From contig NZ_JACHBR010000001.1 of the NCBI RefSeq assembly GCF_014200435.1, forward strand, positions 5,522,001-5,586,000: a stretch of 64,000 bases of DNA. The letters run 5' to 3'. The notes beneath the pieces are model-generated. The model had not been told where the DNA came from and searched no databases. It saw only the letters and a program-made list of their open reading frames with translations. Shown here piece after piece: positions 15,418 through 21,730 of the stretch; the stretch's first letter is position 1; every line of letters starts with the position of its first letter. This DNA comes from Sphaerisporangium krabiense. Its GTDB lineage: Bacteria; Actinomycetota; Actinomycetes; Streptosporangiales; Streptosporangiaceae. Made by a program: the position numbers and the translations under genes.

Positions 15418-15705
15418 TCAGTCGGCCTCGGTGAAGCCGATGGAGAAGGCGGCGTCGAGGTCGTGTTTGGAGTAGGTGCGGAAGGCGAGGTGGGTCTCGG
15501 TGGCGAGGACGCCCTCGACCTTGTTGATGCGGCCGGGGATGACCTCGGCGACGTCGTCGTAGTGAGGGACGCGGACCATGGCGACGAGGTCGTAGTCACC
15601 GGTGATCGAGTAGACCTCGCTGACGCCGTCGAGCTCGGCGATCGTCTCGGCGACCTCGGGAATCCGGGCGACCTCCGCCTTGATGTGGACGATCGCGGTG
15701 ATCAT
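15418..15705 (-). CDS. Stand-alone Lrp/AsnC ligand-binding (RAM) domain protein
   Basis: 95 residues covering only the regulation-of-amino-acid-metabolism domain of Lrp/AsnC proteins (MITAIVHIKAEVARIPEVAE, then VSEVYSITGDYDLVAMVRVP). There is no DNA-binding helix-turn-helix. Such stand-alone domains form oligomers that bind amino acids and may modulate full-length Lrp proteins. The ATG at 15705 has GGAGAGAG upstream. A longer frame upstream has no homologous sequence and is rejected. In related genomes this gene lies close to trpD (from memory); here the ArsR/CDF/DUF1259 genes lie between. Confidence 0.92.
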   Translation of the reverse strand: MITAIVHIKAEVARIPEVAETIAELDGVSEVYSITGDYDLVAMVRVPHYDDVAEVIPGRINKVEGVLATETHLAFRTYSKHDLDAAFSIGFTEAD

Positions 15706-15850
15706 ACGCGCTCTCTCCTTCGAGTACCGAGTACGGCCTGGCCCGACTCTAGCGCCGAGCGGCGCCCCCGCCCTCATCGGAGCCGGGCGGGGGCGGTGGC
15801 GTGCCTGGCGCGCCGGCGTTGTTCGGGGAGGTCCAGGAATAGGGGACGCC

Positions 15851-18800
15851 TCAGTACGGGGATGCCGACGAGTAGTGGCGGCCCAGCCATCCCGTGGCCA
15901 TGTGGTCCCCGCGTTTGGTGAAGATCGCTCCGCCGGTGTCGGCATCGTCGGGGTCGTCGGGGGGACGGGGCGGGTACGCGGCCGTCGCCTTGCCGATCAC
16001 GGCGGTGGTCGCGGTGGCCCGGCCGTTCCAGGTGATCAGGTGGCCGGCGCTGATATCGGTGACGCTCACGTGGTCGAGGCCCTCGGCCAGCTCGCATCCG
16101 GTGGTCCGTTCCCGGAGCAGGCCGATGTACTGATCGTGGTCGAGCTGACAGTCGCGCGGCGGAGTGGTCTGGGCCCAGTCGGGACTGGTGAAGCCCGACT
16201 CCGTGGCGCACCGCCACAGGGTCGGGACGAACTCCTTGGCGAGAGGGGCGGTCGCCATCTGCTCGCACATCCACAGCAGCCTGCCGGAGCCTCGCCGGGG
16301 ACCCCACCGGCGCCAGCGCACCCGGCGGTCGATGTCGCCGGCGACGATCGCGATCCACGGGTGCATGGTCCCCAGGTAGCCCTGCGCTCCGAGCCAGGCG
16401 AAATAGCGGGACGCCGCCTCGAGGATCGGGGCGATGGTGCTGGAGGGCAGGCCCGCGACGAAGCGGAAGGACCGCGTGAACAGCCGAGGGCTGTGCGCCG
16501 CCAGCAGCAGCGCCGCCCGTGCGAGATCGCCTGGCCCGTACGTGCGGGCGGCGCCGAGCCCGCTGACCGCGCTGCTGGAGTCGTTCTCCTCGCGCCGGCC
16601 GCCGGCCCTGATGATCTTCGCCACGACCGGCCGGAGGAAGTCGGCCACCGGGGCGAAGGCGAGCTCGGGCACGAGCGCGGCCACCACGTGGATCAGGACG
16701 TCCTCCGCGATGTCGGGATCGGAGGGGACGGGGATCTCGCCCAGTACCGCGCGGAGGTCGGCGGCCACGTCGGTGTTGACCATCAGCCGCGCGGTGAGCA
16801 ACCCGAGGTCGGTCACGGCGACACGCGTGTCGCCGCCGTTGCCGGGGACCTGCGTGAGGTAGCCGTGGTCGATGAGGAAGTCGACGGCCTCGATCACCGG
16901 CTCGGTGTCGTCGTCCCCCTGGTGGTGGCACAGGGTGTGCTTCCACCACTGCTCGGCCTGTTCGACGCTGGTGATGCGCCCCTGGACCACCTCGGCGAGG
17001 ACATGATCGGTGAGCGTCGCGTGGATCTGTGAATGGACGTGGTATCCGTCCACCAGCGCGCCCTGCCAGTCGGCGCGTTTCACCTCGCTGGTGATGAGAT
17101 AGGCCCAGCCTTCGTGCTCGCCCGCCCCGACCCGGCCGGCGCGGCCGAACATCTGCAGCAGGGTGGCGACGTCGAGGGGGTCGCGGCCGACCATGGTGTC
17201 GCGGACGATGACGGCGCGGGCGGGCAGGTTGACGCCGGCGGCGACGGTGGTGGTGGCCACCAGGACATCGAAGTCGCGGCTGCGGAAGCGGGCCTCGGCC
17301 TCGTGCTTGAACTCCCAGTCCTTGTAGTGCAGGCCGATCCTGGCGGCGGTGCAGAGCTCGTTGACGCGGTCGATGTCCTCGTCGTCGACGCCCCTGATGT
17401 CCACGCCGCGTTCGGCGGCCAGCGCCAGCGCGGTGACGCGGACGTTGCGTTTGCTCCCGCAGAACACCAGAACGCTCCCGCCGTCGTCGGTGACGCGCCG
17501 GGCCAGCACGACGGCGAGGCGGTTGCGCACGCTGTTGTCCGCGGCCTGATCGGGGGTGACGGGGATGGCCGGGAGCTGCCAGGTCAGTCGGCTGGGACGC
17601 CAGGCGGTGGAGATGAGCCGGCCGTTGAGCCATTCGGCGATCTCGGCGGCGTTGGACACCGTGGCCGACAGCCCGACGATCCGGACGGGGGAGTTCACAC
17701 CGCGGACCCGGGCGAGCAGGGCCTCCAGGAGAGGGCCTCGTCCGGGGGAGCCGAGGAGGTGGACCTCGTCGACGACCAGGCAGCCGACCTCGCCGAGCGC
17801 GGCCTGCAGGGAATTGGTCCTGCAGATCGCCTCGAACTTCTCGGTGGTGGCCACCCATAGATCCGCGGCGCGGATCCGCTCGATATCGGTGGTGTACTCG
17901 CCGGACAGCCGTTCGACGCGGAGTCCCTTTCCGCGCCAGCCTTCGAGTTCCCGGTCCAGTTCGTCGGTCAGGGACCGTTGCGGGACCAGCCACGCCGCCT
18001 TGCGCCCCTCGCCCAGGATGGCGCGCAGGACGGCGAGCATGCCGATGACGGTCTTCCCGGCCCCGGTCGGGGCGGTGATGACCAGGTGGCGTTTGGAGTT
18101 CAGCACCGCGGGAGCGGCCTGGACCTGGGCCGGGTTGAGCCGGTCGAACGGGAGGTAGTCCAGCCACGCCTGCGGGACCAGGTCGGCCGCGGGGACGAGT
18201 TCGGACCGGTGGTCGGTGACCGTCTCCTCGTGGGTGTCCCAGATCTTCTCGAACGCGTCGCGGGCGTTGCAGGCCGGCTGCCCGGATACGGGGGAACGCC
18301 AGAAGAGCCTGTCGGCCCCTGGCCGGGTCAGCGCGGTGATGACCGAAAGCGGCGCCGCCCGGCCGTCCGCGCCGACCGTCGAGACGATCTCGTTCTCGGC
18401 CCAGTACGCCACCGATCGGTGGGGGACTCCCGCCGCCGCCAGTGTCGTGCGCAGCCGGCCGAACTCCGGCCCGTCGGGGAGGATGACCCGGACGTCGGTG
18501 CCCGGTGGCAGCGGCGGCAGCGTCCACCGCGGATTGGTGATCTTGCACCAGTGCAGCAGACGGTGCTCCGCCGGCGGCTGCTCCGTGATCTCCTGAGATG
18601 GCTTGGCATCGCGGGCGCCGGATCCCTGGTGAGGGGAGAGATGGGGCAGGAGGCCCAGCATCCGGCCCGCACGGATCGCGGCGACCTGTGACCCTGGCGG
18701 CGGCGCCGGGGCGTCGTCGTGGCCCGCCGCGGCCGGGCCGGGCGCGGGCCCTGCCGCCAGCGCGGCGCCGGGATCCTCGAAGGGGGCGTCCACGGGAAGG

Positions 18801-19414
18801 TCGCCCAGCACGGGACGGCGCGAGATCCTGAGATGTTGCAGGGTGAAGGTCGCGGGACAGGCCGGGCAGACCACGGCGAACTCCGCTCGCCGTGCTCCTT
18901 CGACCTGATAGGCCCGGGTCATGCCATGAAGAGCGCCGTCACAGGTCGGGCAGCACAGATCGGTCTGGCGGAGGTACCGCCATCCCGGGAGGGCGAACCG
19001 GGCCACCGCCAGGCTGGGGCGCACGCCCCACATCCACTGGGCTACGCCGGCGACGGTCGTGTCGCCGGGCGCGCCACGATCCGCCGCGGACGGGGCCGGT
19101 CGTCCTCCCGGCCCCGGCTGCTGGAGAAGATCGGCGTACTCGCGCAGCCTCAGGTCGTCAAGGGTGAAGGTGGCCGGGCAACGCCGGCAGACGACCGCCA
19201 CATAGGGGGAGTTTCGTCCGTCGCGCTCGTCGGCTTTCCACATGGTGTGCAGAAAAGCGTGACATCGCGGGCATTGAGCGGTGACCTGCTCGCGGTAAGT
19301 CCAGCCGGGCTGCGCGAATCGTTCGATCGCCGGTTCGGGGCGAACCCCCCAGAGTGACTCCGCCAATTCCGGGACGGACAGGCCGTCGCTTTCGTGGGAG
19401 CTGTCGCCGTTCAC
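15851..19414 (-). CDS. Ski2/Hel308-type helicase with duplicated N-terminal four-cysteine module
   Basis: 1187 residues. Residues 21-92 and 128-198 are two copies of one module: WGVRP, then RFAxPGWxY, a C-P-x-C pair, a second C-x-x-C pair and PATFTL. Zinc could be held by Cys48/51/76/79 and Cys155/158/183/186. Residues 283-430 are unassigned. The helicase core reads APTGAGKT (448-455, motif I), VVDEVH (547-552, II), GLSATVSNAAEIAEWL (581-596, III), VLVATTTVAAGVNLPARA (V) and QMFGRAGRVG (754-763, VI). The DEVH box and motif III are of the Ski2/Brr2/Hel308 kind. The remaining 400 residues are helical and unassigned. The GTG at 19414 has GAGG five bases upstream. It has no partner gene. RNA or DNA unwinding is inferred; defence or repair roles are speculation. 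Confidence 0.85.
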   Translation of the reverse strand: MNGDSSHESDGLSVPELAESLWGVRPEPAIERFAQPGWTYREQVTAQCPRCHAFLHTMWKADERDGRNSPYVAVVCRRCPATFTLDDLRLREYADLLQQPGPGGRPAPSAADRGAPGDTTVAGVAQWMWGVRPSLAVARFALPGWRYLRQTDLCCPTCDGALHGMTRAYQVEGARRAEFAVVCPACPATFTLQHLRISRRPVLGDLPVDAPFEDPGAALAAGPAPGPAAAGHDDAPAPPPGSQVAAIRAGRMLGLLPHLSPHQGSGARDAKPSQEITEQPPAEHRLLHWCKITNPRWTLPPLPPGTDVRVILPDGPEFGRLRTTLAAAGVPHRSVAYWAENEIVSTVGADGRAAPLSVITALTRPGADRLFWRSPVSGQPACNARDAFEKIWDTHEETVTDHRSELVPAADLVPQAWLDYLPFDRLNPAQVQAAPAVLNSKRHLVITAPTGAGKTVIGMLAVLRAILGEGRKAAWLVPQRSLTDELDRELEGWRGKGLRVERLSGEYTTDIERIRAADLWVATTEKFEAICRTNSLQAALGEVGCLVVDEVHLLGSPGRGPLLEALLARVRGVNSPVRIVGLSATVSNAAEIAEWLNGRLISTAWRPSRLTWQLPAIPVTPDQAADNSVRNRLAVVLARRVTDDGGSVLVFCGSKRNVRVTALALAAERGVDIRGVDDEDIDRVNELCTAARIGLHYKDWEFKHEAEARFRSRDFDVLVATTTVAAGVNLPARAVIVRDTMVGRDPLDVATLLQMFGRAGRVGAGEHEGWAYLITSEVKRADWQGALVDGYHVHSQIHATLTDHVLAEVVQGRITSVEQAEQWWKHTLCHHQGDDDTEPVIEAVDFLIDHGYLTQVPGNGGDTRVAVTDLGLLTARLMVNTDVAADLRAVLGEIPVPSDPDIAEDVLIHVVAALVPELAFAPVADFLRPVVAKIIRAGGRREENDSSSAVSGLGAARTYGPGDLARAALLLAAHSPRLFTRSFRFVAGLPSSTIAPILEAASRYFAWLGAQGYLGTMHPWIAIVAGDIDRRVRWRRWGPRRGSGRLLWMCEQMATAPLAKEFVPTLWRCATESGFTSPDWAQTTPPRDCQLDHDQYIGLLRERTTGCELAEGLDHVSVTDISAGHLITWNGRATATTAVIGKATAAYPPRPPDDPDDADTGGAIFTKRGDHMATGWLGRHYSSASPY

Positions 19415-19774
19415 TCATACCTCGATCGGGTGAAGTGCCGGACATGTGCTGTCACCTCGGGTAACGCGGCAGGCTCGACGGGGAAGCCGGTGTGGCGGGT
19501 CTCGATGCCGAGCACGTCGCGGCCGTCACGCGGAGAGCCGGATCGCGGCGCCGCGAACGCCTTCACAGGGTATAGCGGATATAGGGGTTACGCATGGTTA
19601 TGAGGAGATTATTTATGCGGGATTATTGGCATTTATCGACGTGAATGCATGACATAAGTGGCGACTTGGAGTTATGTGTGCTCTGGGTGTCTTATGCTTT
19701 TGTGTCGGATTCTTTGACCTGCGTGACAGCCGGCGCCAACGAGGTCAACCGATGGGGAAGGGCGACCGGAGCCC
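19415..19774. other. AT-rich intergenic segment beside the helicase gene
   Basis: 360 bp without a convincing gene. Bases 19561-19680 are about 43% GC by hand count, against roughly 70% or more in neighbouring genes. The minus strand must carry the helicase promoter here; CTATATCC and TATACC are possible -10 elements, but I cannot pick one. On the plus strand GAGGAG precedes ATG at 19615 in a nine-codon frame, and another frame of 45 codons starts at 19645; both look fortuitous. The composition suggests an insertion boundary. Confidence 0.6.
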
Positions 19775-21514
19775 TCAGGTGAGCGGCCTGCCCTCACGGC
19801 GCTGACGAGGCTCCAGGCCCTGGTAGGCGCGGTCGATGCGGCCCTTGAGGCGGCCCGCGCCGCGGGCGGGGGTGCTCCAGGTGCCGTCCAGGCGGACCAG
19901 GCGGACGCCGGGGGAGTCGAGCCAGCGCAGGACGCACTCGGTCTCCTCGGCGATCGCGGCCGGGAGCGGGCCGGGGCCGGGGGTGACGGTCTCGGCGGTG
20001 GCGACCAGGGCGTCGACGTAGGGGACCGGGTGCGCGCCGCGCGGCATCACGCCCGCGGCGGCCAGGCGGCCGTGCCGGACGACGTGGATGTCCCAGCCGC
20101 CGTCGAACGAGGGGCTCGCGGCGATCAGTTCCGGGATGCCGGTCAGCGACCGCAGGCGCTGCATGCGCGCGGCCGTGCGCACGTAGACGGCGAGCCGGTC
20201 GCGGTCGACCGCGGCCTCCTCGTAGCGCTGCTCGGCGGCGAGCCGTTCCATGCGGGCCTGGAGCGCGGCGAACACCGGGCCGGGGTCGTGCTCCATGGCC
20301 GAGCGCGCGGCCTCGGCGTGCAGGCCGTACTCGCCGACGGTCTGCCGGCCCTCGCAGGGCGCGCCGCAGCGGCCCATCTCGGCCAGCGCGCAGGCGGACC
20401 GGCGGGTGCGCGGGGTGATGCGCTCGGTGCACTGCCGTAAGGGGACGGCCTCGTGCAGCGCCGTCCGGGCGTCCTCGGCGCCGCGGGCCGAGGTGAAGGG
20501 GCCGAGGTAGGTGGCGGCGTCGGCCTTGACCTCGCGGACGATGGACAGGCGCGGGAACGGCTCGTCGGTCAGCTTGAGCCAGACGACCTTCTCGGGAAAG
20601 CGGGAGCGCCGGTTGTAGCGGGGTTTGGTGGCGCCGATGAGGCGCAGCTCCCTGACCTCGGCCTCCAGCCCGGTGGCGCAGACGATCGGGCGGACGCGCT
20701 CGGCGATGCCGATCATCTCGCGGATGCGGGGCCGGGTCTCGCTCGCGGTGAAGTAGGACCGCACGCGGGTGCGCAGGTCGCCGCTCTTGCCGACGTACAG
20801 CGCCTCGCCGCGCTCGTCCTCGAAGACGTAGACGCCCGGGGCGCTCGGGATCGCGGCGGCGAGATGGCGCTTGCGCTTCTGCTCGGGGGTGGGGGCGCGG
20901 ACGAAGCCCCGCAGCTCCTCCAGCGTGTGGACCTCGTAGGCCCCGACGCGCTCGATCAGCCCGTGCAGGACCTCGACGGTGGCCCGCGCGTCGGCCAGGG
21001 CCCGGTGGCACGGCTCGGAGGACGACCGGAAGAACCGGGCCAGCGTGGCGAGCTTGCAGTTGGGGACCTCGTCGCGGGTGAGGACACGGCGGGCGAGATC
21101 GGCGGTGTCGACCACCGGGTTGGCCGGGGGAGCGTAGCCGCCGGCCTGGCAGCACGCCTTGATGAAGCCGACGTCGAACGGGGCGTTGTGCGCGACGAGG
21201 GTGGCGCCGCGGATGAACTCCAGGAAGGACGGCAGGACCTGCTCGACGCGGGGGGCGGCGGTGACCATGACGTCGGTGATGCCGGTCAGGACGGTGATGA
21301 ACGGGGGAATGGGGCGCCCGGGGTCGACGAGGGTGGCGAACTCGCCGACGACCTCGCCGCCGCGGACCTTGACGGCGCCGATCTCGGTGATGGCGTGCTC
21401 GGCGGGGGAGCCGCCCGTCGTCTCGAGGTCGAACACGACGAAGGTCACCTGGTCGAGGGGCGTGCCCAGCTCGTCCAGCGTTCCCTGAATCCCGTTCTCC
21501 ACGACCAAGACCAT
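19775..21514 (-). CDS. DEDDh exonuclease fused to GIY-YIG/UvrC-like nuclease
   Basis: 579 residues. The N-terminal part (about 20-190) is a DnaQ-like 3'-5' exonuclease: FDLETTG (DxE), AHNAPFDVGFI and HRALADAR (the H-x4-D of DEDDh enzymes). The GIY-YIG nuclease starts near 222 with APGVYVFEDE and LYVGKSGDLRTRV, followed by UvrC-like segments including CGAPCEGR and a UVR-like helix pair (AAEQRYEEAAVDRDRLA). This resembles the Cho-type proteins of actinobacteria. A DNA-repair role is likely but the exact substrate is unknown. The ATG at 21514 gives MVLVVENGIQGTLDELGTPL; GTG at 21547 is an alternative start. Confidence 0.88.
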   Translation of the reverse strand: MVLVVENGIQGTLDELGTPLDQVTFVVFDLETTGGSPAEHAITEIGAVKVRGGEVVGEFATLVDPGRPIPPFITVLTGITDVMVTAAPRVEQVLPSFLEFIRGATLVAHNAPFDVGFIKACCQAGGYAPPANPVVDTADLARRVLTRDEVPNCKLATLARFFRSSSEPCHRALADARATVEVLHGLIERVGAYEVHTLEELRGFVRAPTPEQKRKRHLAAAIPSAPGVYVFEDERGEALYVGKSGDLRTRVRSYFTASETRPRIREMIGIAERVRPIVCATGLEAEVRELRLIGATKPRYNRRSRFPEKVVWLKLTDEPFPRLSIVREVKADAATYLGPFTSARGAEDARTALHEAVPLRQCTERITPRTRRSACALAEMGRCGAPCEGRQTVGEYGLHAEAARSAMEHDPGPVFAALQARMERLAAEQRYEEAAVDRDRLAVYVRTAARMQRLRSLTGIPELIAASPSFDGGWDIHVVRHGRLAAAGVMPRGAHPVPYVDALVATAETVTPGPGPLPAAIAEETECVLRWLDSPGVRLVRLDGTWSTPARGAGRLKGRIDRAYQGLEPRQRREGRPLT

Positions 21515-21730
21515 ACGATCGCCGACCGACAGTTCCGCGTGGGGCACGGGAAATCCGTGCGGAATCCGGTCGCAACCCCGCGGCCCGACGATCGTTATAC
21601 GACGTGCGTTCGGTGCGCTCCGGCGCCTCGGACGCCGCGCCGGCGGTCTTCCGCCGGCGCGCCGGAAACGGCCGCCCCGCAGGTCAGGGCGGCTTTGATC
21701 ACTCGACTCCAGAAATATCCGGAGGTGCGC

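Follow-up and report, generated by a model that had tools for sequence, protein, structure and literature searches.

The 64,000-nucleotide stretch of the Sphaerisporangium krabiense genome analyzed here (hereinafter the window; contig NZ_JACHBR010000001.1, positions 5,522,001 to 5,586,000) contains, between two housekeeping genes, a single large gene for a multidomain helicase. This arrangement raises the question whether the gene is a resident repair gene of the chromosome, cargo left by a mobile element or a one-gene system directed at foreign nucleic acids. The helicase identity and the mobility of the gene are well supported. The reading that we favor, with a probability of about 0.45, is that a horizontally acquired, stand-alone helicase of the Ski2/Hel308 group within superfamily 2 (SF2), with intact core motifs, makes foreign or aberrant nucleic acid less successful, acting as an accessory genome defense factor.

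A stand-alone helicase with an intact motor core

The open reading frame (ORF) on the minus strand of the window that starts with a GTG codon and encodes 1187 residues is a genuine gene (Table 1). Above the Pfam cut-offs, the helicase core is all that can be recognized in this protein, with DEAD matching residues 427-590 (E value 3.3e-27) and Helicase_C residues 642-763 (5.5e-9). The motifs PTGAGKT, DEVH and QMFGRAGR can be read directly from the DNA, and all 63 aligned relatives have the same core residues in SF2 motifs I, II, III, V and VI. The SF2 motif set is complete, including the DE-H box, GVNLPA (with the L present in 59 of the 63 relatives) and QMxGRAGR, which places the protein among the Ski2/Brr2/Hel308-type helicases, as the first-pass annotation of the sequence had proposed on the basis of the DEVH box.

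A single-gene insert at a variable site

The flanking genes, which encode an Lrp protein and an exonuclease, are both present in all 11 analyzed genomes of the genus (in G001, the stretch compared covers the 3' part of the exonuclease gene alone). The helicase lies between them only in the source genome (G000) and its close sister (G008; 98%). In six genomes (G002, G005, G006, G007, G009, and G010) the site is closed, with the aligned gene ends 53-117 bases apart, and in the remaining three it is occupied by other DNA, namely a PIN-domain gene within about 1 kb in G004, about 3.6 kb in G001 that encode, among others, a histidine-kinase-like ATPase and a regulator of the helix-turn-helix/DUF5753 type, and about 9.8 kb in G003, which we take to encode a two-component system and an exporter. 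Thus, the initial description of a lone gene between housekeeping genes holds, in the form of a one-gene insert, and the possibility that this is a housekeeping helicase, which was to be examined by its presence or absence at the syntenic site, can be rejected because the site is closed or otherwise filled in 9 of the 11 genomes. Full-length copies of the gene are found in 3 of these genomes, at two different places: G009 carries a 64% relative elsewhere in its genome, between what we assume to be a regulator-like gene and a superoxide-dismutase-like gene, the latter about 1 kb away, and the best matches of these two neighbors lie far apart in G000 and G008.

The insert is bounded by a 17-mer upstream of the Lrp gene (15741-15757), which is whole in four and partial in two of the six closed sites, and by the stop codon of the exonuclease gene. 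No direct repeats of at least 8 bases were found between 15701-15860 and 19701-19860, and no gene was assigned to 19415-19774. The latter segment includes the AT-rich 120 bases that the first-pass annotation had interpreted as a scar. The stretch is real, being the 120-base window with the lowest GC content in the 64 kb (mean 72.6%, standard deviation 5.8). However, the scar of a lost element can be dismissed given that, among the 11 genomes, only the helicase-carrying G000 and G008 hold it, and the stretch is accordingly best regarded as the 5' region of the insert itself. As it lies upstream of the gene start, the gene proper reaches only to 19414. G009 has a match of 34 bases, to 19502-19535, which falls outside the AT-rich part. 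The stretch has no Rfam match, and a promoter role can only be guessed at, no sigma-70-like site having been found. An imperfect inverted repeat of 12 bp (19520-19531 and 19721-19732) flanks the AT-rich stretch and could be due to chance or represent the ends of a small element. The perfect 11-bp inverted repeat beyond the other end of the gene is a possible terminator; a terminator scan found none.

Sporadic distribution and transfer

A scan of the genome collection, with the best 80 of 90 relatives taken forward, yielded 79 loci, 78 of which bear actinomycete names. The remaining locus, L084, is a 4.3-kb contig labeled Candidatus Melainabacteria that encodes a relative with 54% identity, lacking the N-terminal modules described below, and is likely a mis-binned actinobacterial contig. 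With the C-terminal profile, the family was detected (E value of 1e-10 or lower) in 13 of 394 genomes of the class, representing 7 of 138 genera. In the phylogenetic tree, which was built with a quick method, the two copies of Saccharothrix deserti are placed in different parts, and a Streptomyces clade includes a record named Microtetraspora, as expected under horizontal transfer; frameshifted or partial copies (L093, L094, L098, G023, G221, G313, and G388) suggest turnover. The family is sporadic and has moved as one gene among actinomycetes.

Under one scenario for this mobility, the gene would be a helper of mobile elements (plasmids or integrative and conjugative elements), left behind as cargo, that serves the replication or transfer of the element rather than the host. 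Indeed, actinobacterial plasmids from Embleya, Frondihabitans and Rhodococcus, the last of which is typed as conjugative, encode related helicases with identities of 47.7% (89% of the query covered), 46.6% (55%) and 38.1% (60%), respectively. However, only 1 of the 176 plasmid records with a match covers at least 80% of the query, the surroundings of the relatives are varied and mostly unrelated, and no recombinase, integrase or transposase was recognized in the insert, which makes this scenario very improbable. On the Frondihabitans plasmid, the match (L100, 7487-12303) lies mostly between and over two separately annotated genes, for a DEAD/DEAH box helicase and a helicase-related protein, so this relative may be broken.

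Four-cysteine modules and other domains outside the core

The AlphaFold2 model of the helicase, built from 63 sequences (mean predicted local distance difference test score 85.7, predicted template modeling score (pTM) 0.81), suggests the following order of domains, the names being our interpretation: the two small modules are followed by a linker of low confidence and an alpha/beta domain, then by the pair of RecA domains, a helical body and, at the C-terminus, a domain rich in beta strands. The duplication and the cysteines of the N-terminal module reported initially are confirmed, whereas its length, given then as 72 residues, is closer to 84. The two copies are 45% identical and share the W, the GW of PGW and the pattern C-P-x-C ... 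C-x-x-C, the four cysteines being invariant across 43 aligned copies. Searched against PDB, the module profile yields weak matches, mostly to zinc fingers and ribbons, with Aart (0.00015) in the lead and Rpb9 at 0.003, and for this reason the assignment of the modules as zinc ribbons, and with it zinc binding, is probable but stays a reasoned guess.

Of the 83 helicase ORFs examined, which include the gene of the window twice (as such and as L001), 8 have two modules according to the profile, 50 have a single one and 25 have none. Among these 25, L080, L093 and L094 encode the module in another reading frame and L096 is a fragment, leaving 21 true module-less relatives, most of which start shortly ahead of the alpha/beta domain. 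One of these, L082, retains the apparent last residues of a module, which makes loss by deletion probable, at least in this case. In the tree, modules are missing throughout one clade of 14 rows (Nocardia, Actinoalloteichus, and others) and from the three Actinokineospora rows, which adjoin a group of six rows with two modules each; a further two-module row (L026) is found elsewhere. This pattern reads as gain or loss of the modules as plug-ins. Among 384 genomes of the class, modules were not found outside the helicase: the 9 occurrences, from 8 genomes, all lie within frames of 845-1279 residues on contigs that also match the helicase profile.

The region from residue 283, for which no family had been apparent at first, indeed remains without one. 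When 57 N-terminal members were compared to Pfam, only four models matched, all weakly (Zn_ribbon_4 in 5 members, DUF7351 in 4, DZR and Lar_restr_allev in 1 each), and a fold search of PDB with residues 10-420 (pTM of the query model, 0.43) gave no matches at E values of 0.001 or lower. At the other end of the protein, none of 33 members matched Pfam with their C-terminal 348 residues (E value threshold 0.01), and the corresponding profile found no PDB sequence at E values up to 1. The C-terminus is thus without family assignment as originally stated, although not from residue 780: archaeal Hel308-type models of NCBIfam align, far under their cut-offs, from residue 424/425 as far as 911, such that the part without a family begins later. 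The helical region that follows the RecA domains in the model contains a long helix (991-1014) and may correspond to a winged helix and a ratchet. An invariant, family-specific block with PW, RxRWR and RGxGRLLW is located at about residues 1019-1054.

Kinship with known helicases

Whole-chain comparisons rank ASCC3 and Slh1 first with phmmer and Brr2 first with Foldseek. Such rankings, along with the weak resemblance of the modules to Rpb9, could be taken to indicate an RNA helicase that acts on ribosomes or RNA, either like the ribosome quality-control trigger ASCC3/Slh1 or like Brr2, and whose targets may be viral RNA or stalled translation. However, beyond the helicase core the similarity ends: ASCC3/Slh1 and Brr2 are eukaryotic proteins with two tandem cassettes, whereas the helicase described here has one (one DEAD and one Helicase_C match), and the whole-chain rankings favor the former because their chains hold two cassettes. 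When the summed score is split, the best single cassettes of ASCC3, Slh1 and human Brr2 obtain 222, 215 and 187 bits, respectively, all below the 271 bits obtained in one stretch with Hel308 (9b15). Accordingly, ASCC3/Slh1 can be rejected as the closest kin, and an RNA-directed function appears quite unlikely.

Hel308-type models also lead in NCBIfam, with 180 bits against a cut-off of 1200 for NF040935 and 236 against 887 for the best related model. Hel308 consists of the SF2 motor, a winged helix, a seven-helix ratchet and the helix-loop-helix domain 5. Like Hel308 and HELQ, the protein has a single SF2 cassette with a DE-H box and aligns through residue 911 or so; unlike these, it scores far below the equivalog cut-off, and its C-terminal profile has no PDB match. 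To our knowledge, Hel308/HELQ have no parts comparable to the four-cysteine modules and the N-terminal alpha/beta domain. Motif IVa, described in PMC10484726 as common to the Hel308, Ski2 and RecQ families and defined there as F/YHHAGL, is replaced by LHYKDW (as placed by the cassette alignment), with the H and Y invariant in all 63 relatives. Given that both the family score and motif IVa disagree, the protein is Hel308-like but not a Hel308. PMC12278908 describes Hel308 as absent in bacteria, yet a sporadic actinobacterial family bears a Hel308-like motor. This motor is combined with modules found in no other protein searched, a C-terminus without a family and single-gene mobility; no title on this family was found among the top-ranked papers of the openly licensed PMC literature.

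The main rival to a defense function stems from this kinship. The protein could be an auxiliary DNA repair or recombination helicase, i.e., a bacterial counterpart of Hel308/HELQ that remodels stalled forks and was gained as a fitness gene. The single-cassette comparison and the NCBIfam ranking favor this possibility, but the divergent motif IVa and the very patchy occurrence do not, and we consider it somewhat unlikely.

Among helicases of bacterial defense systems, HamB of Hachiman is Ski2-like, senses DNA damage and has been likened to Hel308, and it too carries extra domains at both ends, including a C-terminal OB-like barrel (all according to PMC12278908), to be compared with the modeled beta-rich domain at the C-terminus of the present protein. 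However, the likeness is limited to the core (101 bits), and HamB has a helical N-terminal domain in place of the four-cysteine modules. The neighbors in the window are the Lrp and exonuclease/GIY-YIG genes rather than the partner HamA, and the HamA model is absent from the 24 families listed for nearest neighbors and the best 25 of 40 for more distant ones (see below). The same holds for BrxHI of type 2 BREX, a Ski2-like helicase (97.5 bits) from a system that PMC12839542 places mostly in actinomycetes: its likeness is confined to the core, and no BREX model appears in these two sets of neighbor families.

Gene neighborhoods and the proposed function

Neighboring genes were called with our own GC-position heuristic rather than a trained gene finder. 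In 6 of the 79 loci (L062, L063, L067, L069, L080, and L089), which hold helicases of similar sequence from Streptomyces, a type II Wadjet operon (JetABCD) is located directly downstream of the helicase on the same strand, such that the helicase immediately precedes jetA; JetA of L062 and JetC of L080 were checked. The Wadjet gene families (clusters 8, 13, and 14) do not adjoin the helicase in any of the remaining loci, and the helicase is neither a constant member of the jet operon nor a Wadjet component. In our clustering, no two of the six loci have an upstream gene of the same cluster (L069 lies near a contig end). In a seventh locus, L071, which has an ORF of 73-80 residues in common with L063, a JetA-family gene is found 7.6 kb away. 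The seven helicases are 81-98% identical, and the four of these loci that are present in the tree (L062, L069, L071, and L080) form one starred clade, so the pairing may represent a single event. Wadjet is common, being reported from 42% of actinobacterial genomes in PMC10482375.

Beyond Wadjet, a wider occurrence of homologues near defense genes is not established. PADLOC models (E value of 1e-15 or lower) were compared with 120 of 155 nearest neighbors, after removal of near-duplicate loci and very long proteins, with 131 of 289 second and third neighbors and, as a control, with 122 genes from 20 regions at hand-picked positions in five genomes. The nearest neighbors matched 24 families, including JetA, RecD2-like, PDC-S68 and PDC-M16A models in 3 members each, the Mokosh-type MkoA and MkoC and mad3 in 2 each, and MzaA, NsnA, Hhe, C3a206, PDC-S37, PDC-S53 and further models in one each. 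The best 25 of 40 families for the second and third neighbors include JetB, JetC, mad3 (2 members), mad6, PD-T4-6 and others; the best 25 of 42 for the control include mad3 in 5 genes, PD-T4-6 and mad6 in 2 each and RecD2-like in 1, with no Jet model among them. As these matches were listed by family and not by gene, a fair rate could not be computed, and we claim no enrichment beyond Wadjet.

Two features of the neighborhoods are of interest with respect to a repair function. RecD2-like genes (cluster 15) adjoin the helicase in 4 of the 79 loci and lie 5.6 kb away in a fifth, but RecD2-like models also match the control set. The neighbor in the window at 19778-21547 is an exonuclease with a GIY-YIG domain, but this gene is present with or without the helicase, so there is no link between the two.

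Several observations weigh against a role in defense. No partner gene was noticed in the window at the outset and none is conserved across the loci of relatives, where no flanking family besides the helicase exceeds 12 of 82 loci; no nuclease or other effector domain was recognized in the protein; its PADLOC matches are confined to the helicase core, with at most 101 bits; the non-Wadjet matches near its relatives form a mixed set that does not clearly exceed the control; one and the same gene family is found upstream in six Saccharothrix loci, which would be expected of a stable chromosomal gene; and scans of IMG/VR found no relative. A phage origin was rejected on the latter ground and because matches in GenBank phages (10 records, none covering more than 80% of the query) are confined to the helicase core. 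The absence of a recognized effector domain, of a constant partner and of a clear general enrichment of defense genes keeps the defense reading under even odds, whereas the other DNA at the site in 3 of the 11 genomes, the sporadic spread and the pairing with Wadjet favor it over housekeeping repair.

If the helicase does act in defense, the two RecA domains would use ATP hydrolysis to move the winged-helix/ratchet body in the 3' to 5' direction on a single strand, most likely of DNA, as the precedents of Hel308 and HamB (PMC12278908) suggest. The optional four-cysteine modules, the alpha/beta domain and the C-terminal beta domain would select the substrate, presumably phage, plasmid or broken replication intermediates, and the protein would operate by itself or in parallel with other systems, for example Wadjet. 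Polarity, the DNA substrate, zinc binding, the role of the modules and the defense function are all what we infer. A more specific version, namely a one-gene immune helicase with a Hel308-like motor, sporadic in actinomycetes and without a PADLOC model, in which zero, one or two zinc-ribbon modules set the target and which mostly works alone but, in a single lineage of Streptomyces, feeds Wadjet or acts as its sensor, appears rather doubtful. Should the helicase provide phage or plasmid defense, it would be a one-gene system that is simple to clone and test; should it function in DNA repair, it would be a horizontally spread bacterial stand-in for HELQ.

Table 1. Features of the helicase locus (window coordinates; domain borders are approximate)
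Feature	Position	Strand	Basis and remarks
Helicase gene, 1187 aa, GTG start	15851..19414	minus	ORF list, Pfam, 98% orthologue in G008
Four-cysteine module, copy 1 (residues 13-96), CPxC...CxxC	19127..19378	minus	Profile, alignment, DNA
Four-cysteine module, copy 2 (residues 120-203)	18806..19057	minus	Profile, alignment, DNA
Alpha/beta domain (residues 283-400)	18215..18568	minus	Conserved; also in module-free relatives
RecA1 domain	17579..18172	minus	Walker A 18050-18070, DEVH 17759-17770; Pfam, model, conservation, DNA
RecA2 domain	17084..17578	minus	Motif IVa position LHYKDW 17315-17332; motif VI QMFGRAGR 17132-17155
Predicted winged-helix and helical ratchet-like region (residues 780-1075)	16190..17077	minus	NCBIfam alignment to 911, model, conservation
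C-terminal beta-rich domain (residues 1105-1180), no family assignment	15875..16102	minus	Model; Pfam null
Insert	~15758..19774		Comparison with closed sites of 6 genomes; helicase is the only assigned gene
AT-rich stretch upstream of helicase, 40.8% GC	19598..19717		Composition; genus comparison
Perfect 11-bp inverted repeat	15763..15795		~55 bases downstream of helicase stop

Additional observations

In 7 loci, genes for tetratricopeptide repeat (TPR) proteins of one family (cluster 3) adjoin the helicase or lie close to it, accompanied in 5 of these by a small partner gene from cluster 6. The TPR genes include those at L040 6913-9969, L046 5293-8259 and 13722-17894, L050 6971-9934 and L045 6275-9340. 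The tree includes five of these seven loci, which fall in two Streptomyces clades with opposite orientations. In the one long member tested, an nSTAND NTPase domain (NTPase5) was detected under the cut-off, and no PADLOC model matched the members tested.

In the exonuclease encoded at 19775-21547, the exonuclease domain, which we take to be of the DEDDh type, is fused to the GIY-YIG domain, with a weak UVR match. The gap between the Lrp and exonuclease genes (15741-19777 in the window; L136, L138, and L142) is a variable site within the genus and, as such, a place to seek further cargo genes.

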